Origin: a virus
IMG/VR virus record: IMGVR_UViG_3300020171_001757
Span: 1-26,889 of that record
DNA length: 26,889 bases
Reading direction: 5' to 3' (one strand)
Every line of letters begins with the position of its first letter. The stretch's first letter is position 1. The translations under genes and the position numbers were made by a program. Under the pieces are notes generated by a model. That model was given only the letters and a program-made list of their open reading frames with translations, was not told where the DNA came from and made no database searches. This document shows, one piece after another, positions 937-24,280 of this stretch.

Positions 937-1893
937 TTATTTTTTTAAATTATTCAAATCTTCTTCACTCCATCCTTTAACTGGCCAGAATTTTTCTATT
1001 AACCAACTTAAAGGATAAATCTGTTTATCGTATTTATTTTTCCAAAACATATCACGGACTTTAGCCTTACATCTAGAAACTTCTTTACCTGATTGTTGAT
1101 ATGGAAAAGAGAAATCTCCTCCTTGGGTACGAAACATATGAGCATAGTAAGTCTTATGGTTCACCAAAACTCGTCCTCCAGATAACCAAGTTTTTACCGC
1201 TACCTCAATTCCTTGATTTCCCCAACTACCAAATTCTTCATCACATAAATTAAGTTCCCAGTATTTATCTTTAGTACACATAAAACATGAACCTTGTAAA
1301 CTCATTGTTTCGGTAAATCCTGTTTTTTCTAACATTTCTTTATATTCTGGTCTTTTAGTATATTCATTAAAATATTGAAAATGCGGCTCAGAATCAAAGC
1401 AATATGAATTACTTTGTGGACGTTCTTTCCCAATCCATAATATTTTACGCCTTATTTTATCAGTTTTACCGCAAGCATCACATTTAACTGGAGTTGGTCC
1501 TTGATATTTTTTCCAACCACAGTGATAACATTTCCAATCAAAAGCCCATAAATTTCTCATTGTTGGTACCATTGTTACATTATCACCAATTTCTTTAAAA
1601 GTTTCTATCATTTTACGATCAAAACCTTTATCGAAACTACAATGGGCGTCAATTTTCATTATAAATTTTCCTCGTGCTAATCTACAAGCTAAATTAGTTG
1701 CAGCACGTTGCCCTATACTTTCTGGAACATAAATTATATTTACTCTTTCATGTTGTGGTATGGACGGTTCTGACCATTGTCCATCAAGTACAGCTATAAC
1801 TTCTGTATCTGCTTCAATATTTTCTAAAATATTTTCTATTGTTTTGGCAAGGAACATTTCATTCCTACTAGGAATTAAAATTGATAAATCCAT
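937..1893 (-). CDS. Family 2 (GT-A) glycosyltransferase with an inserted zinc ribbon
   Basis: 318 aa. The N-terminus (LSILIPSRNE, then EVIAVLDGQW) is the nucleotide-sugar binding start of GT2 enzymes. KIDAHC at ~80-85 is in the place of the DxD metal/nucleotide site. A later LQGSCFMCTK and GSWGNQGIEVAVKTWLSGG resemble the acceptor-side motifs of this family. Four cysteines (C122, C125, C138, C141) form a CxxC-x12-CxxC zinc ribbon within the catalytic domain, which most GT2 enzymes lack. It is a paralogue of the gene at 9801-10577 at the other end of the cassette; the two bracket it. Donor sugar and acceptor cannot be told. No membrane segment, so probably cytoplasmic. Confidence 0.88.
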   Translation of the reverse strand: MDLSILIPSRNEMFLAKTIENILENIEADTEVIAVLDGQWSEPSIPQHERVNIIYVPESIGQRAATNLACRLARGKFIMKIDAHCSFDKGFDRKMIETFKEIGDNVTMVPTMRNLWAFDWKCYHCGWKKYQGPTPVKCDACGKTDKIRRKILWIGKERPQSNSYCFDSEPHFQYFNEYTKRPEYKEMLEKTGFTETMSLQGSCFMCTKDKYWELNLCDEEFGSWGNQGIEVAVKTWLSGGRVLVNHKTYYAHMFRTQGGDFSFPYQQSGKEVSRCKAKVRDMFWKNKYDKQIYPLSWLIEKFWPVKGWSEEDLNNLKK

Positions 1894-1907
1894 ACTATTT
1901 TTTATAA

Positions 1908-2681
1908 TTAATATTTTTCATTATTTTTAACAACTTGTTTAAGTAAATCCATACTATATCCCATTTCATCGGCTTTTTTTATAATCGCATTAATATCTTT
2001 AGGCCAACATTTACCTCCCCATTTTCTTTTATCTGGAAATATGGCAGTATGCATTCTTTCAGTACGACTATCAAGTAAAAATCCTTCTCTAACTTTATTA
2101 TAAGAAACTCCAAAAACTTGACATAAATCATAAAATTCTTGACAAAAACTAAGTTTGGTAGCACCCCAGGCATTTTCCATATATTTTACTATTTCTGCTT
2201 CAACTGCATCTATAATATAATAAAATTTTTCAGGTCCTAATCTTTTACACAATATTCCTATTATTTCATCAGCATCTTTTTTATCCCCTCCAATAATTTG
2301 AAAAGTATGCGAAATAGGATTTAATGGATCTGGATACTTCCAAGGAGAAATATAATATTTTCCTTCACCCATGTATTCAGGACTAAAACAAATACTTTTA
2401 TCTGTTTTATATTTCAATTCATCAACTGTACCAGGAGGAATAGTTGATTTAATTAAAATTAAAGGTGTTTCAATCCAATTAATTACATCTTCTACAATAG
2501 AAATGTCACAGTTTCCATCTTTTTTCATTGGTGTTGGTACTGAAATTATTGCTAGATCACAATCATTAACTTCTTTTTTAGTACCAATTTTTTTAGGTTC
2601 ATCATAAATTACCGCTTCAGGAAATACTTTATGATAACCTTGCCCAACATATCCATATCCTATAATAGCAATTTTTTTCAT
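1908..2681 (-). CDS. UDP-glucose/GDP-mannose 6-dehydrogenase-like protein, lacking C-terminal domain
   Basis: 257 aa. Residues 4-16 (IAIIGYGYVGQG) form the NAD-binding glycine loop. IISVPTPMK and LILIKSTIPPGT are the usual follow-on motifs of the UDPGDH family. VKYMENAWGATKLSF is the central helix and GGKCWPKD holds the catalytic Cys. Typical members are ~390-440 aa with a third, nucleotide-sugar-binding domain. Here the protein stops right after the NNEKY segment, where that domain would begin. Such enzymes oxidise the C6 of a UDP- or GDP-sugar to an acid with two NAD+. This short form may act on another substrate, use a partner, or be impaired. It lies 14 bases from the GT2 gene, in the sugar cassette. 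Confidence 0.85.
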   Translation of the reverse strand: MKKIAIIGYGYVGQGYHKVFPEAVIYDEPKKIGTKKEVNDCDLAIISVPTPMKKDGNCDISIVEDVINWIETPLILIKSTIPPGTVDELKYKTDKSICFSPEYMGEGKYYISPWKYPDPLNPISHTFQIIGGDKKDADEIIGILCKRLGPEKFYYIIDAVEAEIVKYMENAWGATKLSFCQEFYDLCQVFGVSYNKVREGFLLDSRTERMHTAIFPDKRKWGGKCWPKDINAIIKKADEMGYSMDLLKQVVKNNEKY

Positions 2682-2700
2682 ACATTTTTAAATTTAATTA

Positions 2701-3474
2701 TTATTCTGGAGCAGTATCAAAATCTAAATCACAATTCTTTTTCATACCCTCAGGAAATATTTTACGTAAATCCCATCCTGGAATTTGGTCGTATCTTATT
2801 TCCTGCCAATTTTCTGGTTTATTTTTAAAATTTTCTAAATCACACTTAATACTCGAAAAAGTTCTTCTATGTCTAATATCAATATTTGGTCCAGTTGATG
2901 TCCATAATTCACAAACATCATCTGAGAACCCACCACGACGTCTAGCTTTAGTACCAGGTTCATAACCCCAAATTCTACCTTGTCTTGGTTCACGACTTCT
3001 AAATTCATTTAATCCTAATTTATAAACAGCTTCTAATCTTTTTTTATAATGTTCTAAAGCAAATTCACGATTACAACATAAACAAGATAATGGACGCATT
3101 TTATCATAAGTAATTAACTTAAAATCCCACAATTTCCAACGAAATACAGAATTATTATAATAGAAAACATTATCTTTTAATGGTACAAAATCAAAATGAC
3201 TGTCGTGATATAAAACATCATTTTCAAGAAAAAATACATAATCTCCTTCTGCATTTTCTAATGCTGTTTTAATTTGTAAAACATAAGTAGGATAACTTCT
3301 TTCTCTACCCTCTAGCACAATTCTCTTATCACCAAAATTAGTCGGTTTTAATGAAACACAAGTAATTGGAATATTTCTTTTTCTACAACCATCATTAATT
3401 ATTTTTTGTACTGTACTAAATATAGGTTCCTGGACTCTATTGTCGGTATAATAAATTGCACATGGTTTTTTCAT
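2701..3474 (-). CDS. GT-A-like glycosyltransferase (putative)
   Basis: 257 aa from the ATG at 3472-3474, which starts five bases after the stop of the upstream methyltransferase gene. An ATG 30 bases earlier (3504) is in frame but lies inside that gene. MKKPCAIYYTDNRV, CVSLKPTNFGDKR and YVFFLENDVLYHDSHF give the layout of a GT-A enzyme, with END in the DxD position. The first two motifs match the protein at 5492-6178 (VTQKPINFGKN, VISAESDCLYPPDYF), so the two are probably diverged paralogues. No transmembrane segment. Acceptor and donor unknown. Confidence 0.75.
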   Translation of the reverse strand: MKKPCAIYYTDNRVQEPIFSTVQKIINDGCRKRNIPITCVSLKPTNFGDKRIVLEGRERSYPTYVLQIKTALENAEGDYVFFLENDVLYHDSHFDFVPLKDNVFYYNNSVFRWKLWDFKLITYDKMRPLSCLCCNREFALEHYKKRLEAVYKLGLNEFRSREPRQGRIWGYEPGTKARRRGGFSDDVCELWTSTGPNIDIRHRRTFSSIKCDLENFKNKPENWQEIRYDQIPGWDLRKIFPEGMKKNCDLDFDTAPE

Positions 3475-3479
3475 ACTTT

Positions 3480-4103
3480 TTACCAATGCTTGATGAACAT
3501 CCACGATAAAGCTCTATCATGATTTCCATCTTCTGGTCTTCCTAAAATATACCAATTATTAAAATCATATGCTTTAGCATAAGCATCAACAATATATCTA
3601 ACACCACGATAATTCCTACTTTTTATTGTATCTAAATAATCATGACCTGCTATAATACCACCCTTTTTTACTTTTTCTGTCCATTTCATTAGATCCATAG
3701 CCACATAACCAAAACCGTGATTACCATCAATGTAAACAAAATCTAAACTACGTTTAGGAAAATCTGATAAAGCTTCAAGCGATGTTTTTTTAATTAATTT
3801 ACAATTAGGATATTTAGATGTTCTTTCAACTGCATAGTTATAAACATCATCAATTGTTTGTCTATGTTTTCTATCTAAACTAATAATCCTTCTATAAATA
3901 TTATCTTCACTATTTTGCCAAGGATCAATGCCATAAATTTCAAAACCAGCTTCACAATAACCAATAATATTTTGTGCCCAACTAACACCTATTTCAACAC
4001 CTTTTTTAAAACCTAACTGTTTAAAAAATTCTGGTAAATCATCTCGCGAACAATTAGGTATCCAATATGGTGCACCTTTTTCTTTTAAAACATCAATATT
4101 CAT
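3480..4103 (-). CDS. Class I SAM-dependent methyltransferase
   Basis: 207 aa from the ATG at 4101-4103, whose ATGA overlaps the TGA stop of the upstream methyltransferase; a start 21 bases upstream is possible. GVEIGVSWAQN is motif I of the Rossmann fold that binds S-adenosylmethionine. YGIDPW is the acidic end of strand 2, and LDFVYIDGNHGFGYVAMDL, followed by KGGIIAGHDY, covers motifs II-III. The D-GNH layout resembles the Methyltransf_24 type found in sugar-modification clusters. It follows another methyltransferase with the same DADH/DGNH layout, so the pair may come from an old duplication. Probably O-methylates a sugar or lipid in the cassette's product. Confidence 0.82.
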   Translation of the reverse strand: MNIDVLKEKGAPYWIPNCSRDDLPEFFKQLGFKKGVEIGVSWAQNIIGYCEAGFEIYGIDPWQNSEDNIYRRIISLDRKHRQTIDDVYNYAVERTSKYPNCKLIKKTSLEALSDFPKRSLDFVYIDGNHGFGYVAMDLMKWTEKVKKGGIIAGHDYLDTIKSRNYRGVRYIVDAYAKAYDFNNWYILGRPEDGNHDRALSWMFIKHW

Positions 4104-4675
4104 TTGATTACTGCCCAACCACATCTAGGCAATTCATAAATCATATTATCTTTAAAAAATTCATTAACTGCTTCTATAACACCAAATTTAACTCCAGTAT
4201 ATTTAGCTCTATAATGACTATAATCATCTCCAGTTATAAATCCACCTTTCTTAACTTTTGGATACCAAACCTTTATATCCTCTAAACATCCTTCATAAGT
4301 ATGATCGGCGTCAATATAAATTAAATCAAAATATTCATCAGGAAATCTACTAGCCGCATCAAAAGTATACTCTCGATAAATCTTAACAAATGGTTTATCT
4401 TTAATCATTTCCATTACATCATTATACATTTTATTCAATCGTTCTTGCGAATAACCACAATCATTTCTAGAAATAACTCCATCATCAATCCAAGCATCTA
4501 CTCCTACTGCTATTTCTGGATTATGTTGAATCATTAAATTAAAATTAAATCCTTCAAATACTCCAATTTCTGCAATTTTTTGACAGTTATATTTTTCCAT
4601 AAAAGGTTTCCAGATCCTACGTTTATTTGTAAATTTAAGTGCTTGTAAGTCTTGTACTGATTTAGGCATACCCAT
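4100..4675 (-). CDS. Class I SAM-dependent methyltransferase
   Basis: 191 aa. KIAEIGVFEGFNFN is the SAM-binding motif I, GVDAWI ends strand 2, and FDLIYIDADHTYEGCLEDI with KKGGFITGDDY gives the downstream motifs of Methyltransf_24-like enzymes. The start overlaps the upstream glycosyltransferase by 14 bases (the third residue, ATG at 4669, is an alternative). The stop overlaps the next methyltransferase in an ATGA, so the genes are translationally coupled. The IDADH motif, the strand-4 acidic motif, resembles that of O-methyltransferases. Substrate not determinable. Confidence 0.83.
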   Translation of the reverse strand: MGMPKSVQDLQALKFTNKRRIWKPFMEKYNCQKIAEIGVFEGFNFNLMIQHNPEIAVGVDAWIDDGVISRNDCGYSQERLNKMYNDVMEMIKDKPFVKIYREYTFDAASRFPDEYFDLIYIDADHTYEGCLEDIKVWYPKVKKGGFITGDDYSHYRAKYTGVKFGVIEAVNEFFKDNMIYELPRCGWAVIK

Positions 4676-5408
4676 ATTTTTGAAATAATTTAGTTAATCG
4701 TTCGTTAATTATAGGTTTTTCTAATTCATTTTTACCATACATTAAAATATCTATTGCTCTAATCTTACCCCAATATATTCTATATGGATGAAAATGAACA
4801 ACTTTTATTGGTTTAATTGCTTTCTCATAACATAATTTAATTTTTCTTACCCCAAAATTATAGGTAATATTTAATCTTTTTATCCTTGAATTGATATTAT
4901 TAAAATTATGTGCTGTTAATTTCCAAACTGTAGTTTCTTCATTTTTTCGTCTACCAAAATGTTTGTACATATCATCTTTAATCCAATGAAAAATATCACC
5001 ACAATTACTATTAAAAAAATAACTACCTGTATTCCATCTTGCTTTTCTTCCATAATCTGTTAAACCTATATCTACACCATCTAATTCTAATTCTTGTTCA
5101 GTGATTACTTCTTGTTGAAAAGCATCAAAATCATGAAACCAATATAATTCTCCTTGTTTAAAAAATCCTGAATCAAATAAAGTTACTGTTGTATTAATTT
5201 TACTTGCTTGTTTCCAAGCTTCACAAAAATTTTCATTACTAACAACTATAGCTTTAACACCATTATACTCCCAGGGAAAATTTGTAACTAATATAATATC
5301 TTCTAATTTCCAACCTAACTCTAAGCTATTATCTATTTGAAGTTTCTGTAATCTTTCAGTGTCTTCATCAAAACCATTTGGATTAATATAAATAAACAAA
5401 TTTTTCAT
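4662..5408 (-). CDS. GT-A-like glycosyltransferase (putative)
   Basis: 248 aa. The N-terminus (MKNLFIYINPNGFDEDTERL) and a WFHDFDAFQ segment, with DFD as the probable DxD, suggest a GT-A-fold sugar transferase. RWNTGSYFFN is a typical acceptor-loop motif and a late KVVHFHPYR provides a candidate metal-binding His. I do not recognise a named family. The start codon (5406-5408) overlaps the TGA of a decayed HNH endonuclease tail (5405-5488), and the stop overlaps the next methyltransferase by 14 bases. Position and gene size fit the glycan cassette. Confidence 0.7.
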   Translation of the reverse strand: MKNLFIYINPNGFDEDTERLQKLQIDNSLELGWKLEDIILVTNFPWEYNGVKAIVVSNENFCEAWKQASKINTTVTLFDSGFFKQGELYWFHDFDAFQQEVITEQELELDGVDIGLTDYGRKARWNTGSYFFNSNCGDIFHWIKDDMYKHFGRRKNEETTVWKLTAHNFNNINSRIKRLNITYNFGVRKIKLCYEKAIKPIKVVHFHPYRIYWGKIRAIDILMYGKNELEKPIINERLTKLFQKYGYA

Positions 5409-5488
5409 TTAATTCCTTTAAAATAATTCATCCAGTATTCTCTATTAAAATTAGTTTTTATGTGACAGAATTCCAAGATGAATGACTT
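5405..5488 (-). pseudogene. Decayed HNH endonuclease, C-terminal tail only
   Basis: Between the stop at 5492 and the glycosyltransferase start at 5408 one frame reads FCHIKTNFNREYWMNYFKGI, then TGA. This matches the C-terminus of the intact HNH endonuclease at 23581-24270 (CNKCHVKTNYNRNYWIRYF). The frame has no ATG and begins just after an in-frame stop, so only the last ~27 codons survive. Its TGA overlaps the next gene's ATG as ATGA, as in the intact copy. I infer a homing endonuclease gene that once sat between the two glycosyltransferases and was deleted. Confidence 0.82.
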
Positions 5489-5491
5489 TTA

Positions 5492-6178
5492 TTAGAATGG
5501 TTTTTCATAGTCTATATTTTTTATAAGCCACTTACGAAGTGGAATCCCTGAACCCCAATACTTCAAATCATAAATAGGTATTCGTTCAGAATGCGTGAAA
5601 AAACGCATCGCTCTATGGGTTTTAATCTGCACCACTGGATTTTCTGTTCTGTAATATTCTATTTTGTCAAAAACATCTTCTTTCTTGTGCCGTTCTTTGG
5701 GAAAATTCTTTTCTTCCACACTCCATTGCGGGGCTCCTTCAAATAATTCTTTTAAGCGTTTGATATAAAATTCCCTGCCAACTATTTGAGAATGAGTTGC
5801 TCCTTCTTTTTTATAAAAAAAATAATCCCTCAAATCTGGCATAACATATAAATTTGAATTTCTATAACATCTATCATTTCTAGCTGGTCTATATGTAAAA
5901 TAATCTGGTGGATAAAGACAATCGGATTCAGCTGAAATTACAAATTCTGTTTTAGCCTCCATAAGTCCAAGTTGTACTTGACGGAAAAAATTAAATCCAG
6001 ATACTCCAATATTATCACCAACACAAATATTTTTACCAAAATTAATTGGTTTTTGAGTTACACTAATTATTGGCAAATCACCACAATTTTTTAAAATTGT
6101 TTCTTTAATTCTATTTTCAAAGTTCGGATCTTCCATATTACTACTACAATAAATAATAGTAGCATTATTTTCATTCAT
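5492..6178 (-). CDS. GT-A-like glycosyltransferase (putative)
   Basis: 228 aa. ATIIYCSSNMEDPNF, ISVTQKPINFGKN, FVISAESDCLYPPDYF (ESD in the DxD position) and GREFYIKRLKEL give a GT-A-like enzyme related to the product of 2701-3474. The start at 6178 overlaps the end of a decayed HNH ORF (6171-6248) by eight bases. The 3' end is followed after three bases by another HNH scar (5405-5488), so this gene is flanked on both sides by remnants of the same endonuclease family. Acceptor unknown; cytoplasmic by lack of membrane segments. Confidence 0.75.
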   Translation of the reverse strand: MNENNATIIYCSSNMEDPNFENRIKETILKNCGDLPIISVTQKPINFGKNICVGDNIGVSGFNFFRQVQLGLMEAKTEFVISAESDCLYPPDYFTYRPARNDRCYRNSNLYVMPDLRDYFFYKKEGATHSQIVGREFYIKRLKELFEGAPQWSVEEKNFPKERHKKEDVFDKIEYYRTENPVVQIKTHRAMRFFTHSERIPIYDLKYWGSGIPLRKWLIKNIDYEKPF

Positions 6179-6248
6179 ACATTTTACTAAAATAATTAAT
6201 CCAACCTTTTAATGCTTGACTAATTTTTTGTTTAATTTTTTCTTTCAT
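6171..6248 (-). pseudogene. Decayed HNH endonuclease with internal deletion (25 codons)
   Basis: A 25-aa frame from ATG 6246-6248 reads MKEKIKQKISQALKG, then WINYFSKMYE. The first part is a NUMOD3 DNA-binding motif like residues 20-29 (KEKIRQAHKG) of the intact endonuclease. The end matches its C-terminal YWIRYF. The zinc ribbon and HNH core between them are absent, so this looks like one internal in-frame deletion. It overlaps the upstream methyltransferase by 17 bases and the downstream glycosyltransferase start by eight. It could still be translated as a small peptide, but no function is implied. Confidence 0.7.
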
Positions 6249-6816
6249 ACTTTTTAATAATAATTAATGTATCTTGTTTTTGTTCTTTAGAAAATTCAAA
6301 TACTTGACAATTATAATCAATCAATTGATCTTTTAGTCTATCTGGATTCTTACAATCTTCAATGATATAAAGTACATCTTTTTTTCCAAGAAGTGGCATT
6401 AAAATTCTAAATGCTCGTAATTGTATTATACTATTATGTCCCGCATCATCTATTACTAAATCAATATCTAAACCAATCTTTTTAATTAAATCCAACATCT
6501 GATTTCTTCTATTTGTATTCACAAGCATCGTTGTAATTCTGTCATCCTCAAATAAAGTACTTTCATCAATATCTACTCCATAAATATGAGCATTAGGAAA
6601 AAAATCTCGCCACATTCTTAAACTTGCTCCAACTTGATAATGTTCAGGCGTCCATTGCATTGTTTTTGAACTTCCAATTCCTAATTCAAGAATTTTTTTG
6701 AATACATATTTTTTATCTTTTAAAAGTTCATAATAAACTGGTGTATAATTATGACCGATTTGTGGACATTTATCTGTCCCATACTTGTAAGCTAATTCAC
6801 AAAGTTCTGTCAACAT
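6232..6816 (-). CDS. SAM-dependent methyltransferase, macrocin-O-methyltransferase-like
   Basis: 194 aa. The YGTDKCPQIGHNYTPVYYEL opening, ILELGIGSSKTMQW, then GASLRMWRDFFPNAHIYGVDID, LVIDDAGHNS and YIIEDCK are the ordered motifs of sugar O-methyltransferases related to demethylmacrocin O-methyltransferase. In that family SAM binds at ELGIG and the acidic DDAGH and EDC residues coordinate the metal and substrate sugar. Start chosen at MLTELCELAYKYGTDK. The gene overlaps the upstream GT-B gene by 20 bases and the HNH scar downstream by 17. Likely methylates a sugar hydroxyl in the cassette's product. Confidence 0.88.
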   Translation of the reverse strand: MLTELCELAYKYGTDKCPQIGHNYTPVYYELLKDKKYVFKKILELGIGSSKTMQWTPEHYQVGASLRMWRDFFPNAHIYGVDIDESTLFEDDRITTMLVNTNRRNQMLDLIKKIGLDIDLVIDDAGHNSIIQLRAFRILMPLLGKKDVLYIIEDCKNPDRLKDQLIDYNCQVFEFSKEQKQDTLIIIKKYERKN

Positions 6817-7624
6817 ATTGTAAATATAATAATTTATATTCTATAGCAATTTTTTCCCAAGTATATTTTTCTAAAATTTGAATTCTTCCACTTAACTTTC
6901 TCAACGCTTGTTTAATACTTTCAATATCACGTTCAACTAATATAACTCCTTCAAGTTCACTTGCTATACCAACATCTGTTGAAATTACTGGCTTATTCAT
7001 CGCTAGAGCTTCTAAAGTAGGATTATTACAACCTTCAGAAATACTAGCTAAAACTAAACAATCTATTTGTTTATAAAATTCTGGCATTCTTTCATATGGA
7101 AAATCATTTAGTCTAGCAAGATATAAAAGTTTTAAATTTAATTGATTACATGCTTCTTGTATTAATAATAATCCTTTATGTTCTGCTGAATCTTTAACAC
7201 CAACATAACCAACAACAAATTCTCGATTAAACAAATATCCATCTACTCCATTGGGTATATAAATTACATTATCTTGTTTAGTTAAATCTTTTAATTTACT
7301 AGCTAAAATAGGATTCTGAGCAATACAACAAACTGTTTTTTGATAAATTTCTATTAAATCATTCAATTTATCAAACCTTTCGTCAAGTGTACGAAATGAT
7401 GCTAAAGTCGTAAATATTTTATCTTTATATTTTAAAATGTACTGTTTTGATTTTGTTATCCCACCACTGTATAAAAAATGTATTACATCATATTGGTTAC
7501 CATTAAGCAAATTCTTAGCATAAACAATATCAACCTCATCATTAACCCATTGCCTTTTTAAAGCCTCTGCTCTTAAAGTAGTTGCCCATCTAAATTTATC
7601 GTTGTGAATTAATAAAATTTTCAT
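6797..7624 (-). CDS. GT-B glycosyltransferase (GT4/GT1 type)
   Basis: 275 aa, shorter than the usual ~350-400. MKILLIHNDKFRWATTLRAE begins the N-terminal Rossmann domain and NVIYIPNGVDGYLF is the linker typical of GT4. The C-terminal domain has VVGYVGVKDSAEHKG and a donor-binding ASISEGCNNPTLEALAMNKP with the E-x7-E pair that contacts the nucleotide sugar. Retaining enzymes of this family add hexoses to lipid-linked or protein-linked glycans. Its 5' end overlaps the deacetylase-like gene by 29 bases. The short N-terminal half may reflect a reduced acceptor domain. Confidence 0.9.
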   Translation of the reverse strand: MKILLIHNDKFRWATTLRAEALKRQWVNDEVDIVYAKNLLNGNQYDVIHFLYSGGITKSKQYILKYKDKIFTTLASFRTLDERFDKLNDLIEIYQKTVCCIAQNPILASKLKDLTKQDNVIYIPNGVDGYLFNREFVVGYVGVKDSAEHKGLLLIQEACNQLNLKLLYLARLNDFPYERMPEFYKQIDCLVLASISEGCNNPTLEALAMNKPVISTDVGIASELEGVILVERDIESIKQALRKLSGRIQILEKYTWEKIAIEYKLLYLQYVDRTL

Positions 7625-8078
7625 AACTCCACCAATGAAACGACTTAATATTATAATTTTCCCACTTACCTTTACGAATATTACAAAATTTTAATCCTAA
7701 ATCAGAACATGCATCTTTAATATTTTTACTCTCTCTATTCCAAGGCGCAAAAAATGTACTAATTTTTTTTGCCTTACCAATCATTCTAATTGAATTTTCT
7801 TGCCAATAATTTAATGATTGAGCTAAATCAGTAATACATTCCTCATAACTTAATATACTATAATCTTTATGTTCCCAACCATGTAATCCAATTTCAAGAA
7901 ATGGTACTGTTGCTAAATAATAAAATATACCCTGATTTAACCATAGATCTTTCATTATAACTGCCACTGTATGAATTTGATTACTTTCAATAAACTTCTT
8001 ATGAATCTCTTTAAATGTATATAAACAAGTATACACTGAAATATCATCATCACGAAATAAAATGTTGATGGGTTTCAT
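7596..8078 (-). CDS. Polysaccharide deacetylase-like (NodB/CE4) protein
   Basis: 160 aa. NILFRDDDIS carries the catalytic and metal-binding Asp pair of motif 1. EIGLHGWEHKDY carries the HxxxH metal site of motif 2, and STFFAPWNRES is motif 3. This is the NodB homology core of carbohydrate esterase 4 enzymes, which remove N-acetyl or O-acetyl groups from sugar polymers using a divalent metal. No signal peptide is visible, unlike secreted members, so it probably acts in the cytoplasm on a precursor. It overlaps genes on both sides by about 29 bases. At 160 aa it is near the lower size limit for the domain. Confidence 0.85.
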   Translation of the reverse strand: MKPINILFRDDDISVYTCLYTFKEIHKKFIESNQIHTVAVIMKDLWLNQGIFYYLATVPFLEIGLHGWEHKDYSILSYEECITDLAQSLNYWQENSIRMIGKAKKISTFFAPWNRESKNIKDACSDLGLKFCNIRKGKWENYNIKSFHWWSYENFINSQR

Positions 8079-8655
8079 AACGTAAATATGGATTATTTTT
8101 TATATCTAAATTAATACGATTAACTTTTAATTCAGGAAATTGTCGTAAAATTATTGGTAAACTTAATTGATCTCTTTGCCCCCAACGACAAATTTCTGCC
8201 CACCAAGCTTCATTAAACTGATTAACTATTGGGATATGTTTTCTAATAATTACACCTCCCATTGCCATATCTTTTTTATCAGGTAATCCTATTTTTTCAT
8301 AATGATTAACTTGTTTAATAGCTTCCTCATAAACATTTCTATCTCTACTACGCCAAACATATTTTATCCACTTTAACTCCCAATCAATATTTTTACTTTT
8401 ATAATGTCTAAAAAATGCTATATCATTATCACCTAACCATTCTTTAACTAATTCATCGGCTGGTTTTAAAAGATAAATATTACCATCAACCCAAATTGAT
8501 ACATTACAATCTAAAAATTTATGTGGTAATATTTTATAAATTTTAGCATTCATTACTGGTGATACAAACTTATCATAATCCAAAAAAACTTTTATATCAT
8601 TTCTTAAATTATCTTTTCCGTTGGTTATGGCTGTATAAATTTCTATTTTTGGCAT
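8050..8655 (-). CDS. DUF616/TOD1-like glycosyltransferase
   Basis: 201 aa. IEIYTAITNGKDNL, MNAKIYKILPHKFL, VSIWVDGNI (DG in the DxD place), DIAFFRHYKSKNIDWE, GGVIIRKH and CRWGQRDQLSLPIILRQF follow the order of the DUF616 (TOD1/MUCI70) family of putative glycosyltransferases, common in capsule and glycan loci. No transmembrane segment. The start overlaps the upstream methyltransferase by 13 bases and the 3' end overlaps the deacetylase by 29. Family recognition is from motif memory, not an alignment. Confidence 0.85.
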   Translation of the reverse strand: MPKIEIYTAITNGKDNLRNDIKVFLDYDKFVSPVMNAKIYKILPHKFLDCNVSIWVDGNIYLLKPADELVKEWLGDNDIAFFRHYKSKNIDWELKWIKYVWRSRDRNVYEEAIKQVNHYEKIGLPDKKDMAMGGVIIRKHIPIVNQFNEAWWAEICRWGQRDQLSLPIILRQFPELKVNRINLDIKNNPYLRYETHQHFIS

Positions 8656-9092
8656 ATAATAAAATGATACTCTTTATTAAAATCTTTTTTAATGTACGTA
8701 GAAAAAACTTCTTTTCCTTCATAAAATTTCCAAAGTTTCCTGTATGGTTTATAATCCTTACCTACAAAACCAAAAATAGCTTTTCCACCCTTTTTTGTTA
8801 TTCTTAAAACTTCATCTATCATTTTTTGAGGATTATCTACAAATTCATACATCCCATTACATAATACTATATCAAAAATATTATCAGGAAAATTAGTTTT
8901 TTCAATATTACCAGTATAAGTTGGTTTTAATCTATTATTAATATCAATAGTTTCAAAACCATAATTCCAATGAATTGATTTACCAACATCTAATACTTTA
9001 CCTTTAGCATTTTCTTTTACCCAGTTATTATACCAAAACCTATATGGCGATTGGACGAAATCCTTTTTTAACTGCTTTATCAAAAGGGACAT
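8643..9092 (-). CDS. Small SAM-dependent methyltransferase (Methyltransf_11 type)
   Basis: 149 aa. GKVLDVGKSIHW is motif I, FETIDINN the end of strand 2, FPDNIFDIVLCNGMYEFVDN motif II, and ITKKGGKAIFGFVG motif III. This is the minimal class I fold. The Gly-rich loop DVGKS is shorter than the usual DxGxGxG. The protein ends soon after strand 5, which is short for the family. The ATG at 9092 lies 53 bases inside the end of the upstream asparagine-synthetase-like gene, an unusually long overlap; no better ATG is close by. Substrate unknown. Confidence 0.82.
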   Translation of the reverse strand: MSLLIKQLKKDFVQSPYRFWYNNWVKENAKGKVLDVGKSIHWNYGFETIDINNRLKPTYTGNIEKTNFPDNIFDIVLCNGMYEFVDNPQKMIDEVLRITKKGGKAIFGFVGKDYKPYRKLWKFYEGKEVFSTYIKKDFNKEYHFIICQK

Positions 9093-9804
9093 TGTTGTAT
9101 ATTAAATATTCATAAAGTGGAGCTTTATAATTACGATTTTTTAATTCTGGCGTAAGCCAAAGAAATTCTTGAACAAGATCAGTATCTAAAAATGGATACC
9201 TAATTTCTATTTCATAAAGTGCTGCAATTTCCTCAAGTTCATTTAAGTATTCTTTCTGCATACCTTGTCTAAAATTTTTCCATTCATACAACTTATCAGG
9301 AAATTTACCTTTAAATTCACTTTGTTTTGGAAATAAAGCATAATCAGAAAGTATTTCATCACCTCCCTGTCCTGATATACAAACATTTCTACCTTCTTGT
9401 TTAGCAGTATCAAACATATAAGCCACACCCATTGATGCTATATCTTTTATTGCTTTATCATTTATTTTCCCTTTAAGAAAATTATAATACTTTTGCCATA
9501 ATTCTTTATTCATTTCAGATATTTGATAATTTTGGATATAATACAATCTCTTCTGAATAATATTTTTATTCTCATTATTAAAAATAGTATATGCTTTAAA
9601 ATCTATTTTTTGTTTTAAAAGTGCATTACTAATAGCTCCACTATCATATCCAGACGATAAACCCATAAAACATCCATTAATAGCTCTTTTATTTATTGCT
9701 AGTGTAAATCTTGCTAACCAATTATCATAAGTTGTTTTGTATTGATTATTAAAATCAAATTTATACTGATAAAATTCTATAATATCTTTATTGACAATTT
9801 TCAT
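9040..9804 (-). CDS. Asparagine-synthetase-like ATP pyrophosphatase domain (no glutaminase domain)
   Basis: 254 aa from the ATG at 9802-9804, whose ATGA overlaps the TGA stop of the upstream GT2; an ATG nine bases earlier (9813) is in frame. GLSSGYDSGAISNALL is the PP-loop (SGGxDS type) that binds ATP. ISGQGGDEILSDY and IEIRYPFLDTDLVQEFLWL are the further signatures of the AsnB synthetase domain. The N-terminal glutamine-hydrolysing domain with its catalytic Cys is absent. The enzyme would therefore use free ammonia or a partner, or may amidate an acid group such as a uronic acid. A UDP-sugar dehydrogenase-like gene in the same cassette could supply the acid; that link is inference. Confidence 0.85.
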   Translation of the reverse strand: MKIVNKDIIEFYQYKFDFNNQYKTTYDNWLARFTLAINKRAINGCFMGLSSGYDSGAISNALLKQKIDFKAYTIFNNENKNIIQKRLYYIQNYQISEMNKELWQKYYNFLKGKINDKAIKDIASMGVAYMFDTAKQEGRNVCISGQGGDEILSDYALFPKQSEFKGKFPDKLYEWKNFRQGMQKEYLNELEEIAALYEIEIRYPFLDTDLVQEFLWLTPELKNRNYKAPLYEYLIYNNVPFDKAVKKGFRPIAI

Positions 9805-10577
9805 ATTTTCCATTTTTCTTTAATTTCTTTATAATAATCTCCCCAAACACTTAAAGAATATTTCCAACAGGCTTCATTATTTGATGGATTTTCTTCTGTA
9901 CCATTATTATGAGTTCTTGAAAAATTTCTATGCTTATGGGCAAACCAAGCATTTTTATTAACCATCAATTTACCTCCAGCCTGCCAAGTTTTAAAAACCA
10001 TTTCATGAGAATCTTGATAAAGTGGACCATAACCTTCTGTTTGTAATTCTTTAATAACTTTATCCCACCAACTTCTTTTCATTATCCAACAACTTCCTTG
10101 CATCGCCATTGTTTCATCAACCATTATTTTTGTCCTTTCATTAGTTCGACTATCCCATTTTTGACCAGCAAATTTAATTCCTCCTTGAATAACTAATTTT
10201 TCATAATCAATATAGGGTATATCCATTATTTCCCATTTAATAGGATCTAAAAAATATCTTCTAGGAGTTACAATCCAATCATCTTGTATAACTCCTAAAA
10301 TTATTCTATCAAAACCTTTACAAAACATACAATGTTCATCTGTTCTCATTATATATTCACCCTTTGAAACTAATACTCCTGCATTAATAGCTCCTCTCAT
10401 TCCTCTATTTCTACCCAAATGAACATATTTAACTCTCTTATCATCAATAATACTATTAGTCCAATAACCATCTAAAACAGCAATAATTTCAAATTCTTCT
10501 TCAAAATTTTCAAGGATCGAATTTATTGTTTTATTAAGTAAAGGATCTCTATAACTTGGAATTATTATGCTCAACAT
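9801..10577 (-). CDS. Family 2 (GT-A) glycosyltransferase
   Basis: 258 aa. MLSIIIPSYRDPLLNKTINS, EIIAVLDGYW, GRNRGMRGAINAG and YIMRTDEHC (TDEH in the DxD place, ~79-82) are the ordered motifs of a GT2 enzyme. MAMQGSCWIMKRSWW and SHEMVFKTWQAGGKLMVNKN match the acceptor side of the paralogue at 937-1893, but this copy lacks its zinc ribbon. It is the first gene of the cassette in transcription order and starts eight bases after the peptidase stop. Its stop is ATGA-coupled to the next gene. Confidence 0.9.
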   Translation of the reverse strand: MLSIIIPSYRDPLLNKTINSILENFEEEFEIIAVLDGYWTNSIIDDKRVKYVHLGRNRGMRGAINAGVLVSKGEYIMRTDEHCMFCKGFDRIILGVIQDDWIVTPRRYFLDPIKWEIMDIPYIDYEKLVIQGGIKFAGQKWDSRTNERTKIMVDETMAMQGSCWIMKRSWWDKVIKELQTEGYGPLYQDSHEMVFKTWQAGGKLMVNKNAWFAHKHRNFSRTHNNGTEENPSNNEACWKYSLSVWGDYYKEIKEKWKI

Positions 10578-10585
10578 TTTATTTT

Positions 10586-11581
10586 TTAAAATGAATTACC
10601 TTTTGGAATCTGATTAAACTGATTTTTTGTTATTCTTTTAACAGAAGTTCTATTCTCAATAAGATACAAAGCTGCATTACCTTCTCTTCCATTTAAAACT
10701 TCTAATAATTTACCTCCATAAATAATACCTTTACGACCAGGTGGTTCATTCTCTATAACCATTCCTTTATTATTTTGTTTTATTAAATCAATAATTTCTT
10801 GTGTCATAAAATTAGGCTGATCAATTAATAACCACGGATTAAACATGTATTCATTTACAAACCATTCTTCTCTTAATTTTTGCCATTGTCCATTAAATCT
10901 ATCACCCCAACTATTTGGAGTAGCAATATATTTTCCTTTTTCATCTATTCCTGCTTTACCAAAATATAAAGCGTGTCCCCATTCTTTGTTTCCTGGTTTT
11001 GGTTCAATTGTATTCCAACTTCCATTATTTGCTCCTTCGATTCCTCCAACAACCCCATAATTATCACGAATACCTTGAGCTATGATTTCCATATTAATAT
11101 CCATTACCATTCTGAATTCCTTTGCAGATAATTTTTTAGCCACTCCACTTATCTGGTCACTCTTCCAAGAAATATCTTTTATAAAAGATTCTGATGGAGG
11201 ATTACTATTATCATATGAAGAAATCAAAGATTCTTCCACCGCACCCCAATTAACAGTAAGTCTACCACCTTCACGAATATAAGCACCTCCTTGCGGTAAA
11301 GCAATCTGTGAATAAACAGCTTTGGCTGAAACTTCTTTATAAACACCTATTTCAACTGTATTAAGAACTGCAATATAATATGACCAAGCTTGTCCTACAC
11401 AAGATGATGATCCATCCTGATCTTTAATTGGAATTTTATAATTTATAATTTTTTCAATATCCCATCCAACGTTCCAATCAAATGGAGCAACTGAAAAAGC
11501 GATACCATCATAAACACGATCTCGTACATCTAAGGGATCTTTTATTGCTCCTTTTCCAAATTTTTGATCTTTATTAGGCAT
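10586..11581 (-). CDS. Papain-like (C1) cysteine peptidase
   Basis: 331 aa. PIKDQDGSSSCVGQAWSYY gives the oxyanion Gln (Q55) and nucleophile Cys (C61). WGHALYFGKAG gives the His (H203) and YIATPNSWGDRF the Asn (N223) in the NSWG motif. These are the four active-site residues of family C1 in the correct order and spacing. There is no signal peptide or propeptide, and residues ~255-331 form an extra C-terminal tail. It lies between a holin-like gene and the glycan cassette. It might cleave a virion or host-surface protein during entry, process a tail protein, or assist lysis. The family is clear; the role is not. Confidence 0.9.
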   Translation of the reverse strand: MPNKDQKFGKGAIKDPLDVRDRVYDGIAFSVAPFDWNVGWDIEKIINYKIPIKDQDGSSSCVGQAWSYYIAVLNTVEIGVYKEVSAKAVYSQIALPQGGAYIREGGRLTVNWGAVEESLISSYDNSNPPSESFIKDISWKSDQISGVAKKLSAKEFRMVMDINMEIIAQGIRDNYGVVGGIEGANNGSWNTIEPKPGNKEWGHALYFGKAGIDEKGKYIATPNSWGDRFNGQWQKLREEWFVNEYMFNPWLLIDQPNFMTQEIIDLIKQNNKGMVIENEPPGRKGIIYGGKLLEVLNGREGNAALYLIENRTSVKRITKNQFNQIPKGNSF

Positions 11582-11920: not shown

Positions 11921-13030
11921 TTACTGTATGAGGGCTACTAGATCCAATGTTCCTTGTTGCTGAAAAGATACAGATGAATATGCTGAAAATCTAATTTTAG
12001 GAACACATATATCTATTAAGAATTGAGCATCATAAGTCGTAGAAGCTGCAGCAGCATCTATTTCAAACTGAGTTGGTGTAAATGTAGCTGTACCACCTGA
12101 AATCGAATGCTCTCCTAATTGTATCCAATTATCTGTATCAGCAGCTATTTCTGAATTACTAGTAGCCGCATAAGGATAATTCTCAGTAGCAGAAAATGAA
12201 CCAATATAACCCCATACTTTAATAATTGCTGATGATGCTATTGCTGATGGCGAAGGCGAAACCGAAGGACTAATACTTACAGAAACTGAAGGACTTCTTG
12301 ATGGTGATAATGATACACTAACGGATGGACTAATGGAAACCGAAACGGAAGGTGATACAGACGGACTAATAGATACTGAAACGGATGGTGAAATGGATGG
12401 TGAAACAGATGCTGAGGGACTAACTGACGGTGAAACAGATGGTGAAACTGATACTGAAGGACTAACTGATGGTGAAACAGATAAACTAACTGATGGAGAT
12501 CTAGAAGGACTTAATGAAACTGATACTGAAGGAGATCTAGAAGGACTTAAAGAAAGAGAAACTGATGGACTTAATGAAGGACTAATTGAAGGAGAAGCTG
12601 AATTTGGAGGTGATACTGATACTGAAACAGAAGGTGAAATGGAAGGACTAATAGAAAGACTTATTGATGGAGATAATGATACTGAAATGGAAGGAGAAAT
12701 AGATACTGAAACTGATGGTGAATACGAATGTGAAGGACTAGTTGAAGGTGATACTGATGCCGAAGGACTAACTGACGGACTTTTTGATACTGATACCGAA
12801 GGACTAACTGATGGTGAAACAGATACTGAAGGACTAACGGATGGTGAAACAGATACTGAAGGTGATTGAGTTGAACCACTTGTATACTTACAAACAAAAT
12901 TTAAAATCTTTGAAAAGTAAGTATCTACTATAACTCGACTTGCTACAGCCTGTGTCGCCGTTTCTGTTGTTTGAAGTGTTATTCCATCAAATATCTTGAT
13001 GGATTTTACTTTGTTAATTGATTCTGCCAT
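11921..13030 (-). CDS. Virion-type protein with a long Ser-Pro-Val repeat (mucin-like) insert
   Basis: 369 aa. Residues 1-55 (IKIFDGITLQTTETATQAVA onward) and 268-369 (AIIKVWGYIGSFSATENYPY onward, ending QGTLDLVALIQ) look like two halves of one beta-rich domain. Between them residues ~56-262 are almost pure SPSVSPSVSVS-type repeats with occasional Ile, Leu, Ala and Arg. Nearly every other residue of this ~205-residue stalk is Ser, so it would be extended and is a natural target for O-glycosylation. It probably belongs to the tail or capsid surface. The 14-gene sugar cassette downstream makes glycosylation of this protein an attractive but untested idea. Confidence 0.8.
   Translation of the reverse strand: MAESINKVKSIKIFDGITLQTTETATQAVASRVIVDTYFSKILNFVCKYTSGSTQSPSVSVSPSVSPSVSVSPSVSPSVSVSKSPSVSPSASVSPSTSPSHSYSPSVSVSISPSISVSLSPSISLSISPSISPSVSVSVSPPNSASPSISPSLSPSVSLSLSPSRSPSVSVSLSPSRSPSVSLSVSPSVSPSVSVSPSVSPSVSPSASVSPSISPSVSVSISPSVSPSVSVSISPSVSVSLSPSRSPSVSVSISPSVSPSPSAIASSAIIKVWGYIGSFSATENYPYAATSNSEIAADTDNWIQLGEHSISGGTATFTPTQFEIDAAAASTTYDAQFLIDICVPKIRFSAYSSVSFQQQGTLDLVALIQ
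12245..12865 (-). repeat. Degenerate short tandem repeat coding for Ser-Pro-Val
   Basis: About 620 bases inside the gene at 11921-13030 consist of degenerate 6- to 12-base units. On the plus strand they read as variants of GGACTAACTGATGGTGAAAC. The variation is mostly synonymous or swaps Val, Ile, Leu and Ala, which suggests old expansion with selection for the Ser/Pro pattern. Copy number is likely to vary by slippage or recombination. A long plus-strand frame rich in Thr-Glu-Gly-Asp (12333-12869) is just the antisense reading of this repeat. Confidence 0.85.
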
Positions 13031-20344: not shown

Positions 20345-21910
20345 TTATTTTTCATCAATTCTTATAATTGCACAATTATTGGTCAAAAGAATTCCACTAG
20401 TTGCAACTGCATTCTGAATTTCATTCCTTACTACTTTTTTTGGATCAATAATTCCTGCTTTAAAAAGATCTTGATACTTATTTGTTAAAGCATTGTAACC
20501 AATGCCGTGGTCTAATACTTTACCAACAACAGCTTCACCTGATACTCCACTATTATCAGCTATTTTTTTAAGTGGCGCAATAAGTGATTTTCTAACTATC
20601 TCTACACCAGTATTAAATTCCTTATCATGTGATTCTATAACTAATTCATTAATACATCTAAGTAAAGCAACACCCCCTCCTTCAACTATACCTTCTTCAA
20701 TTGCTGACTTAGTTGCATTAAGAGCATCCTCTATTCGATATTTAATTTCAGCTTGCTCTACTTCTGAAGCTCCTCCTACTTTAATATTTGCAATAGAACC
20801 AGTTAAACGTCCTAATCTAATTTTTAATTTATCTTTTTTATACTCATCCTGTTCACCTTTTAAAAGAGTTTTAACTTCTTCAATTCGTCCTGCAACATTT
20901 CCTAAAGCCCCTGCTAAAATTGTTTGATCACGCGATGTAATAACTGAAGCACAAGTTCCACAATCTTCTAAATCTGCATCTTCTAATTTTTTTGAATCTT
21001 CCTTACCTACAACGATAGCATTTGTTAATGTCGCAATATCATAAACTAAATCTTTCTGATAATCACCAAATGATGGAAGTTTTATGGGAATACATGTAAA
21101 TTTTCCTTGAAGATAATTTTGAACTATAAATGCAAGTGCCTGACCTTCTATCTTATTTGCAAATAAAATAAGATTCCTTTCATTCTGATTAATCAATTTT
21201 TGTATAACTGGAACAAGTTGTGCTTGCATTGTTATATCATCAGTACAAATAATAATTTTAGGATCGGTCGTTACTACTGCTAAATGTTTAGGATCATTAA
21301 TAAATATATGTGATTGATAACCTTGATCAAGCTTTGTCCCATTTACATAATCAACTTCTGTTTTTAAAGAATTTGAATTCGTTACTGTAATAGTACCATC
21401 AACTCCAACTTTATTAAGAACTTCAACAATTAATTTACCAATACCTTCATCATTATTAGCTGAAATTGTTGCAATCTGAAGTTTTTCTTTTTCTGTTGTA
21501 ATCTTTTTTGTTTGCTTATCAAGTAATTTAATAATCTTTTCAAGAGCAAAATCCATTCCTCTTTTAATAAGAATTGGATTCATTCCTGATGCTACAGCCT
21601 TATGACCCTCTTCAAACATTGCTCTGAGTAAAACAATTGTAGTCGTTGTGCCATCACCAGCTTCACGATTTGTATTTTCAGCAGCTTCACGACTAAGCAT
21701 AACTCCCATATTTTGTAATTTATTCTTTAAAAATATCGTGCGAGCAACGGTAACCCCATCTTTGGTTATAGTTGGGAATGAACTTTCTTCAAAAATTACA
21801 TTATTACCTCTAGGTCCTAAAGTTGAACCAACGGCTTCTTCTATAACTTGAATCCCTTTTAAAATTTCGTTTCGAGCTTCCTGTCCAAAAAATACTTCTT
21901 TATAACTCAT
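20345..21910 (-). CDS. groEL: GroEL-type chaperonin (Hsp60)
   Basis: 521 aa, against ~540-548 for bacterial GroEL. STLGPRG (29-35), TKDGVTVA (49-56) and AGDGTTT (84-90) form the ATP site. YRIEDALNATKSAIEEGIVEGGG holds the catalytic Asp of the second conserved block. The apical part includes LDQGYQSHIF and LGRLTGSIANIKVGG. All main ATP-site signatures are present, so it is probably active. The flexible GGM tail of bacterial GroEL is missing; it ends in NNCAIIRIDEK. Phage chaperonins are known in some large phages and fold capsid or other virion proteins. A GroES-like gene lies upstream, separated only by an HNH scar. Confidence 0.97.
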   Translation of the reverse strand: MSYKEVFFGQEARNEILKGIQVIEEAVGSTLGPRGNNVIFEESSFPTITKDGVTVARTIFLKNKLQNMGVMLSREAAENTNREAGDGTTTTIVLLRAMFEEGHKAVASGMNPILIKRGMDFALEKIIKLLDKQTKKITTEKEKLQIATISANNDEGIGKLIVEVLNKVGVDGTITVTNSNSLKTEVDYVNGTKLDQGYQSHIFINDPKHLAVVTTDPKIIICTDDITMQAQLVPVIQKLINQNERNLILFANKIEGQALAFIVQNYLQGKFTCIPIKLPSFGDYQKDLVYDIATLTNAIVVGKEDSKKLEDADLEDCGTCASVITSRDQTILAGALGNVAGRIEEVKTLLKGEQDEYKKDKLKIRLGRLTGSIANIKVGGASEVEQAEIKYRIEDALNATKSAIEEGIVEGGGVALLRCINELVIESHDKEFNTGVEIVRKSLIAPLKKIADNSGVSGEAVVGKVLDHGIGYNALTNKYQDLFKAGIIDPKKVVRNEIQNAVATSGILLTNNCAIIRIDEK

Positions 21911-21996
21911 ATACTTTTTTTATTATTAAAATAATTAAACCAATATTCTCTATTATTATTTATCTTAGTATGGCAACTTCGGTAAGGTGATGGCAT
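21907..21996 (-). pseudogene. Decayed HNH endonuclease with internal deletion, between groES and groEL
   Basis: 29-aa frame from ATG 21994-21996: MPSPYRS, then CHTKINNNREYWFNYF and NNKKSI. The first three residues match the start of the intact endonuclease (MPSGIY) and the rest matches its C-terminus (CHVKTNYNRNYWIRYF), with everything in between lost. Its ATG begins one base after the GroES stop, and its TGA overlaps the GroEL ATG as ATGA. It could still couple translation from GroES to GroEL. Confidence 0.8.
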
Positions 21997-21997
21997 A

Positions 21998-22264
21998 TTA
22001 ATTTTCGTGATAATCTGTAATTCCAATTATATCTTCTTTATCAATAAAGAAAAAATCTTCTCCTTGAAAAGTAAGAGGAAAAATAGAATATTTACCAAAT
22101 ATTATAGATGTTCCTTTTTTATAATTTTCATCATTATCAGATAAAACTTCTCCAGTTATAAGACGCTTATCTTCTTCTGACTCTTCAACCACAATATCTG
22201 CTTTAATCTGTGATTTTTTATGTTTACGAATAAGTAAAATACCTTTTTTTGGATTTATTATCAT
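21998..22264 (-). CDS. groES: GroES-like co-chaperonin
   Basis: 88 aa. GILLIRKH begins strand 1. KADIVVEESEEDKRLITGEV covers the mobile loop and the GEV motif; the loop is shorter than in bacterial GroES and keeps a hydrophobic IVV tripeptide like the IVL that docks on GroEL. KKGTSIIFGKYS and the ending FIDKEDIIGITD are the usual VGDxVxFxKY and xEEDILAI motifs. It would cap the GroEL ring encoded next. The changed loop suggests it is tuned to its own GroEL. Identification rests on motif order, not on overall identity. Confidence 0.85.
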   Translation of the reverse strand: MIINPKKGILLIRKHKKSQIKADIVVEESEEDKRLITGEVLSDNDENYKKGTSIIFGKYSIFPLTFQGEDFFFIDKEDIIGITDYHEN

Positions 22265-22454: not shown

Positions 22455-23444
22455 TTATAAACCATCATTATCAAAATCAAAAATCTTTGGTTTTGTTAAA
22501 TTTTCTATATCACGCTGAATACGAGTTTTAGGCTTATCAGGTTCTTCTGGATTATATGGACGAGTCATTATCATATAACCTAAATCATCAACTGCATGAT
22601 CATTTTTCTTTACCGGTTCTTCAGGTTGATTTCGAGTTTTTTCTTGTAATTCAGTTAACTTTTTATATCGATAATTTAAAATTTCAATACATAAATTTGG
22701 ACACTTATCTTTAAAAATATATAAATGTGCTTTACCATTAGAATCTAATTGAAAATATTCACGGATACGTGTAATACGTGCATTAACATCATTATTAGCA
22801 AGAGAAAAATCCCACCCGTGATCATAAAAATCTTCAAGTACTGAATAAGCAATTTCTTCACCTTCTTTAACTTTTGTTCTATTCTTAGCTGCTGTTGAAG
22901 GATCAATTACTTTAATTTGAAAAGCAATATCAGCCGCCATTCTTTTTTGTGAAATTGATTTTAATCTAAATTCAAGATCATCTGACATTAAATATCTAAA
23001 TTGTTCAAACATTTCGCGGCTTGATACTGATGGTAAGGCTGGTTTATAATATTCATCTATAATATATAATCTATTATCAGGCGTCCAGGCTCCAATATGT
23101 GCTGATGTTGGATTATTTTGTCCAAAATCTAATGACATTAAATATTCAGCCTGTTCTATTTCAAATGAATTTATAAAATGAATAGCTGGATTAAAATCAC
23201 AAAATTCAGAACCAAAAATTAATTTACCCGCACGAGAACTAAAATCAATTTCATATTCTTTATTCCAATCAGCGAGTGGCGTACCGATACGTTCCTTTTC
23301 ATACCATTCTTTACCATTTCTTTCAGGATCTTTATTAGGATCTGCACTATAATGAAGCATCGCTACTGTAAATTTATTCTTTGCATTTTTCCATACTTTT
23401 AGTCCTTTTATTTTTTCAAATTGAACAACATCCTTATACATCAT
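22455..23444 (-). CDS. terL: Large terminase, C-terminal nuclease part
   Basis: 329 aa. WNKEYEIDFSSRAGKLIFGS is the end of the linker region. YLMSLDFGQNNPTSAHIGAW holds the first RNase H-fold Asp (D106), NRLYIIDEYY the second acidic site, and DHAVDDLGYMI the C-terminal Asp pair. This nuclease cuts the DNA concatemer at packaging start and end. The ATPase half is a separate ORF at 24281-24979. The frame continues five codons upstream of the ATG before a stop (DVANMMYKDV). The ATG overlaps the stop of a 47-aa ORF (ATGA), so this half can be translated alone. Confidence 0.9.
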   Translation of the reverse strand: MMYKDVVQFEKIKGLKVWKNAKNKFTVAMLHYSADPNKDPERNGKEWYEKERIGTPLADWNKEYEIDFSSRAGKLIFGSEFCDFNPAIHFINSFEIEQAEYLMSLDFGQNNPTSAHIGAWTPDNRLYIIDEYYKPALPSVSSREMFEQFRYLMSDDLEFRLKSISQKRMAADIAFQIKVIDPSTAAKNRTKVKEGEEIAYSVLEDFYDHGWDFSLANNDVNARITRIREYFQLDSNGKAHLYIFKDKCPNLCIEILNYRYKKLTELQEKTRNQPEEPVKKNDHAVDDLGYMIMTRPYNPEEPDKPKTRIQRDIENLTKPKIFDFDNDGL

Positions 23445-23584
23445 ATTTGCAACATCTTATTAAGAATCCATTTATAAAAAAATCTTGGTATCCATTTAGG
23501 TTTTTTTCTAAGTAATTCAGTATAAAAAATCTTGGCTTCCATTTTTACTGCTTTACGAAATTTTTTATCTTGTTTTTGACTCAT
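23441..23584 (-). CDS. 47-aa basic protein between the HNH gene and the terminase nuclease
   Basis: MSQKQDKKFRKAVKMEAKIF, then YTELLRKKPKWIPRFFYKWI to the end: basic, helical, with aromatic residues. Its start is ATGA-coupled to the HNH stop and its own TGA overlaps the start of the terminase nuclease part, so the three are translated in series. No homologue recognised. It might be an independent gene or serve only to couple translation. Confidence 0.55.
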   Translation of the reverse strand: MSQKQDKKFRKAVKMEAKIFYTELLRKKPKWIPRFFYKWILNKMLQI

Positions 23585-24270: not shown

Positions 24271-24280
24271 ATTTTTTATA

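Follow-up and report, generated by a model that had tools for sequence, protein, structure and literature searches.

A mobile gene cassette in a phage late region, probably for mucin-type O-glycosylation of Ser/Pro repeats on virion proteins

What use has a phage for a long run of glycan genes placed among the genes for its own particle? The question is raised by IMG/VR record IMGVR_UViG_3300020171_001757, a linear viral contig of 26,889 bases (hereafter the window), in which 14 open reading frames (ORFs), all on the minus strand, occupy positions 937-10577 between phage late genes. They encode seven transferases, four methyltransferases, a UDP-sugar dehydrogenase-like (UGD-like) protein, a weak NodB-like protein and an AsnB-like protein. 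An earlier note on this DNA had described a fourteen-gene cassette inside a phage late region, and so it is: all 14 ORFs are in place, the genes for the terminase, the portal (P22/SU10-like), the scaffold and the major capsid protein (MCP), as well as GroES and GroEL, lie upstream, and the contig ends just past the cassette.

Mucin-type O-glycosylation, in which peptide-directed GT-A transferases modify long Ser/Pro repeats, is considered to belong mainly to animals. The cassette is, in our view, probably a mobile, phage-encoded system of this type, serving Ser/Pro-repeat stretches that have been grafted on virion proteins. Three elements of this proposal had gone unrecognised in the earlier note, namely the likeness of the transferases GT2a and GT2b to polypeptide GalNAc-transferases (pp-GalNAc-Ts), the late protein SPV as likely acceptor, and their joint recurrence across many phages. 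In the literature searched, which included few subscription papers, no description of the combination of pp-GalNAc-T-like enzyme, Ser repeat and mucin-like system in phages was found.

GT2a, GT2b and the candidate acceptor

GT2a and GT2b are, as judged from sequence profiles and a structural model, relatives of the pp-GalNAc-Ts. The AlphaFold2 model of GT2a (pLDDT, the predicted local distance difference test score, 95.9) has pp-GalNAc-Ts as all of its top 29 structure matches (Z 23.4-26.1, root-mean-square deviation (rmsd) 2.1-2.6 Å), the best of which superposes on 248 of 258 residues at Z 26.1 and an rmsd of about 2.3 Å; the next family, chondroitin polymerase, follows at Z 20.0. A profile of 50 GT2a/GT2b relatives (alignment A3) retrieves pp-GalNAc-T4 as its best PDB match (8.5e-15, positions 4-253), and a phmmer search of the PDB with GT2b also places a pp-GalNAc-T first (6.7e-8). 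The metal triad D80, H82 and H214 is invariant in the 50 sequences, D80/H82 aligning with the DxHC motif and H214 with the GH metal ligand of GalNAc-T1/T4. By likeness to these enzymes, GT2a may transfer a sugar, possibly GalNAc, to Ser/Thr of a peptide acceptor. GT2b additionally contains a CxxC...CxxC insert, which is likely to be a zinc ribbon, and GT2b-like proteins with long extensions (535-582 aa) occur in several phages.

The likely acceptor of the cassette glycan, SPV, is encoded upstream of the cassette. Its conserved core of 160 residues is broken after residue 55 by a repeat of 207 residues (56-262), which is of the SPSVSPS type and about 50% Ser (alignment A5). In the AlphaFold2 model the core is beta-rich and the repeat, disordered with pLDDT <50, lies between strands 42-50 and 266-275, which would put it in a surface loop of a jelly-roll-like core. 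Structural matches of the core are weak and are to jelly rolls (Z up to 10.1); a search of BFVD with the core gave no match under 1e-3. One relative (L006) has the same insertion, the core is uninterrupted in eight others, and in L005, L012, L039 and L282 the repeat is carried by the next protein instead.

Recurrence of repeat and transferase, and exchange of the cassette

A search of viral contigs with the GT2a alignment yielded 47 loci. Repeat ORFs, defined by at least 40% alternating Ser over 40 residues, were present in 25 of 25 viral GT2a loci of at least 15 kb and in 31 of 37 of at least 10 kb, and two of the remaining six have repeats elsewhere in the record. Nearly all repeat ORFs (51 of 52) share the strand of GT2a, and 45 of the 52 are no more than 3 kb from a GT2a/b-like gene. 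The repeats, overall 47% Ser and 18% Pro, are borne by carrier domains of 36 families that are mutually unrelated by BLAST, a distribution that favours function over common descent. Cassettes typically run from a repeat gene through GT2a, variable glycosyltransferases (GTs) and methyltransferases, then MT24a, GTx and GT2b, to another repeat gene, and bracketing by GT2a and GT2b with repeat genes on the flanks is seen in many phages. GT2a, GT2b, GTz, MT24a and GTx make up the core, GTz (29 of 33 viral loci) being the commonest besides GT2a and GT2b and MT24a being found in 25 of 33, while the UGD, AsnB, NodB-like, TOD1 and GT4 genes are accessories. With UGD as query, no relatives were found in viral contigs, and GT2a and GT2b had no tblastn match among 50,697 records of isolate phages.

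The association also appears in the reciprocal direction. Viral contigs were scanned for SPSxSPS-encoding DNA, the enzymes being ignored, which gave 201 loci; matches to the DNA pattern TCNCCNTC... were for the most part due to chance and were retained as background. A GT2a/b-like gene was found at locus level in 5 of 19 repeat-positive versus 0 of 182 repeat-negative loci (Fisher 4.5e-6). Searching whole records of the true SPS-type set raised the count to 9 of 14 with a transferase. Of the five negatives, three are short fragments of 10-17 kb, one is a plain SP-dipeptide repeat, and the last is a record of 84 kb in which the only match is weak. In a scan of 16 loci anchored on the peptidase gene that borders the cassette, repeats occurred in both loci with the transferase and in 1 of the 14 without.

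The closest comparison is offered by phages built on the same chassis. An MCP search found 12 viral contigs (59-90% identity) that share the late gene order and diverge downstream of the conserved peptidase gene. The large cassette is present in the window, L006 and L005, the L006 order being nearly identical gene by gene; L012 and L039 have GT2a plus further genes, and L004, L007, L009 and L013 have in its place one GT-A gene of another kind along with other small genes. The repeat accompanies GT2a in six of six members (window, L005, L006, L012, L039 and L282) and is found in none of the four that lack it (L004, L007, L009 and L013; one-sided Fisher 1/210). A further chassis relative (L011:4519-5265) has a late protein with a poly-Ser tail, together with other GT2/GT4 genes and no GT2a-like enzyme.

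Comparison with related phages, which the earlier note had proposed as a check on swapping as a block, gave a clear result. One phage (G415, locus L030) has all 14 cassette families in the window's order, with a few extra genes inserted, and by BLAST neither its terminase nor its portal or capsid protein matches the window's counterpart. The cassette, collinear 14/14 on an unrelated chassis, therefore moves as a block. On yet another chassis, L048 carries 11 of the 14 families.

Exchange extends to cells. Against 84,980 genomes, the GT2a alignment found 13 contigs, all from metagenome-assembled genomes (MAGs) of candidate phyla radiation (CPR) bacteria (11) or DPANN archaea (2), in a scan that detects close relatives only and with the proviso that the binning of phage contigs into MAGs is unreliable. 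Some MAG copies are clearly chromosomal, for example one on a 744-kb contig that also carries genes for ribosomal and metabolic functions, and six genomes in a sample of 379 Patescibacteria carry a GT2a relative. MAG and viral copies are intermixed in the tree, where well-supported branches force at least five exchanges. CPR bacteria are thus likely hosts of the glycosylation system. A search for the portal in the 13 MAGs and for the MCP in the 379 Patescibacteria genomes gave no match, and hence no prophage or direct host link for the window. Beside CPR chromosomal cassettes are tail-fibre-like proteins with probable signal peptides (L281:8631-9899, L281:14505-15707 and L271:15922-17229), which are possible cell-surface acceptors.

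A wider proposition, on which our judgement is evenly balanced, is that phages of CPR bacteria, and perhaps of DPANN archaea, form a widespread class with their own 'mucins', in which Ser/Pro repeats borne by dozens of mutually unrelated virion proteins are glycosylated by a cassette shared with host chromosomes and virions are dressed in host-like glycan coats.

Proposed pathway, alternatives and known systems

GT2a and/or GT2b, acting in the infected cell, would place the first sugar, taken from a host nucleotide sugar, on serines of the SPV repeat. The remaining GT-A, GT4 and TOD1-type transferases would elongate it, and the UGD-, AsnB- and NodB-like enzymes and the four methyltransferases could then tailor the chain by forming uronate or uronamide, by de-N-acetylation and by O-methylation. 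The outcome would be a dense sugar brush on finished particles. If this is true, phages gain a designed sugar surface with an identifiable acceptor, an initiator and a block-moving cassette, and odd phage GT genes become a testable enzyme-substrate prediction. It would also provide a rare handle on phage encounters with CPR/DPANN hosts and a source of compact soluble peptide glycosyltransferases.

Several points weigh against this proposal. The system is known here from sequences and predicted structures, SPV is assigned to the virion by its position and fold, and neither acceptor nor donor is fixed by a GT-A fold. GT2a, at 258 aa, stops with the catalytic domain and is devoid of the C-terminal ricin-type lectin domain. 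Two repeat-bearing loci, L250 (84 kb) and L257 (16.8 kb), have no GT2a-like transferase, save a weak match in L250, and a different transferase may be at work there. In most of the CPR chromosomal cassettes (9 of 13 MAG loci) the fetched stretch is free of Ser repeats, so that other acceptors are possible. The SPS-type repeats of L250 and L257 are on carrier domains that look similar.

The alternative that survives best, though we regard it as unlikely, is that the cassette remodels the host cell surface by altering glycans of the wall or capsule, for instance as a block to superinfection, and owes its late-gene location to module shuffling. The GT4, UGD and NodB-like proteins are indeed polysaccharide-type enzymes, the related CPR chromosomal cassettes adjoin probable secreted proteins, and GTs of groundwater phages are usually interpreted as auxiliary genes aimed at the host (PMC10980836). 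However, no flippase, polymerase or undecaprenyl-phosphate transferase is among the 14 genes, the initiators look like peptide transferases, and the Ser repeats are tightly linked to the cassette on dozens of unrelated carriers. It is somewhat less probable still that the enzymes glycosylate a different virion protein, for instance that of the capsid, and that the Ser repeats merely travel along in a shared hypervariable late region. Mycobacteriophages, Che8 among them, are known to have glycosylated capsids (Freeman 2023, as cited in PMC11256854), but repeat and GT2a are lost together in same-chassis relatives whose capsid proteins are 59-74% identical. Recovery of the transferase when sampling starts from the repeat also speaks against hitch-hiking. 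Finally, phage GTs can modify modified bases, but action of these transferases on phage DNA or a small molecule is scarcely credible given the pp-GalNAc-T-like predicted fold, the position in the late region and the window's lack of any recognised base-modifying gene.

The preferred reading, O-glycosylation of the Ser/Pro repeats, has counterparts in several known systems. With GT27 mucin-type O-glycosylation the cassette shares the GT-A catalytic domain, the DxH + H metal triad and a disordered, Ser/Pro-rich candidate acceptor; it differs in the phage late-operon location and in an identity of 16-20%, and since GT2a has no lectin domain it is said to work like GT27 and is not filed as GT27. 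Gram-positive serine-rich repeat adhesins come with GtfA/GtfB islands and resemble the window in that an alternating-Ser repeat protein adjoins a multi-GT island. There, however, a GT-B GtfA/GtfB pair initiates, in place of the GT-A pp-GalNAc-T-like enzyme, SecA2-type export genes absent from the window's island are present, and the site is the cell wall and not the virion; no cassette gene has a Pfam or NCBIfam match to the GtfA/GtfB-type family. Virion glycosylation is described for mycobacteriophage Che8 and relatives (Freeman 2023, as cited above), systems in which phage-encoded GTs modify virion proteins; the GTs of the window are likewise phage-encoded, and they are linked to late genes. 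The mycobacteriophage systems use a few GTs and folded capsid proteins, in contrast to the 14-gene mobile cassette and repeat-domain candidate acceptor of the window, for which the glycan on the virion is predicted from genes. Chloroviruses and mimiviruses possess glycosylation islands, virus-encoded multi-enzyme pathways for particle-surface glycans (PMC9614988); they are alike in encoding GTs and methyltransferases for the particle surface, and the window differs as a double-stranded DNA tailed phage with other enzymes and a protein repeat as acceptor.

Gene content and neighbourhood of the cassette

The cassette proteins were compared with Pfam, NCBIfam and PHROGs (Table 1). Most identities given in the earlier note are backed by domain matches: the two GT2 enzymes (E 2e-13 and 2e-16), the GT4 and DUF616-type enzymes, the UGD-like and AsnB-like proteins and three methyltransferases. 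One methyltransferase and the NodB-like protein are weaker, the latter scoring under the Pfam cut-off (20.3 versus 23.1 bits) with RDDD, HGWxH and PWN invariant in three phages. The three GT-A-like ORFs GTx, GTy and GTz have no Pfam match, and the c8/c12 and c9 families have no PDB match; they belong to conserved families whose acidic motifs, E84/D86 and HDxD, do not vary (alignments A6 and A7). The AsnB-like protein is without a glutaminase domain and perhaps amidates a uronic acid. The UGD-like protein is short (257 aa) and lacks the C-terminal domain, and it retains the Cys of GGKCWPKD.

Table 1. Coordinates of the cassette genes and adjoining features in the window
Feature	Position	Strand	Basis
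Structural-like ORF past cassette, cut by contig end	2..499	-	sequence alone
GT2b (c14), second pp-GalNAc-T-like enzyme, last cassette gene	937..1893	-	phmmer vs PDB
UDP-sugar dehydrogenase-like (c13)	1908..2681	-	UDPG_MGDP_dh PF00984 2e-20; TIGR03026 2e-38
GT-A-like GTx (c12), relative of c8, usually directly ahead of GT2b	2701..3504	-	A6, architectures
Methyltransferase MT24a (c11)	3480..4124	-	Methyltransf_24, PF13578 4.2e-14
Methyltransferase MT24b (c10)	4100..4675	-	Methyltransf_24, PF13578 1.2e-14
GT-A-like GTy (c9)	4662..5408	-	HDFD motif invariant in alignment A7
GT-A-like GTz (c8)	5492..6178	-	family alignment A6
Methyltransferase-like (c7), weak	6232..6816	-	phrog_21658 4.6e-11
GT4-type glycosyltransferase (c6)	6797..7624	-	PF13692 5.1e-13
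NodB-like deacetylase (c5), weak	7596..8078	-	PF01522 5.4e-4
TOD1/MUCI70 (former DUF616) glycosyltransferase-like (c4)	8050..8655	-	PF04765 3.2e-16
Methyltransferase (c3)	8643..9092	-	Methyltransf_11, PF08241 2.9e-11
AsnB-like (c2), asparagine-synthase domain	9040..9813	-	PF00733 1.6e-9; SSGYDS ATP motif
GT2a (c1), pp-GalNAc-T-like GT-A enzyme without lectin domain, first cassette gene, predicted initiating transferase	9801..10577	-	
Papain-like (C1-type by sequence motif) peptidase-like protein, borders cassette	10586..11581	-	weak PHROG peptidase match
SPV, late protein, Ser/Pro repeat within conserved jelly-roll-like core, proposed acceptor	11921..13030	-	A5 alignment; AF2

The genes had been described as overlapping head to tail, which is true of 9 of the 13 junctions (by 13-53 nt), the other four being short gaps of 14-83 nt. 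A dedicated pathway for a modified oligosaccharide is likewise supported, but to call it complete was too strong: apart from the UGD-like gene, none of the 14 serves nucleoside diphosphate sugar synthesis, and the precursors must therefore be host nucleotide sugars.

The bordering peptidase gene was rejected as a member of the cassette because it is also found in relatives without one (L004, L007 and L013), and it is counted as a chassis gene. In relative G001 the peptidase is interrupted in frame at its WAHC motif by an intein-like insert that shows LAGLIDADG-type features (L014:4023-6134).

Further upstream, the phage-encoded GroEL and GroES pair (20345-22264) is kept in nearly all chassis relatives. 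The large-terminase coding region (22455-24979) is divided between two ORFs that flank an HNH endonuclease ORF, an insert that is absent or variable in relatives and has no Rfam intron match; searches of the window for tRNAs and Rfam families found none. The capsid gene of relative G008 is interrupted past about residue 49 by a homing-endonuclease-like ORF (L019:1180-3130), and in L007 a small dehydrogenase of UGD/6PGDH-like type is encoded between GroEL and the portal region (L007:5502-6218). The contig ends in two copies of a 23-bp perfect tandem repeat (26843-26889).

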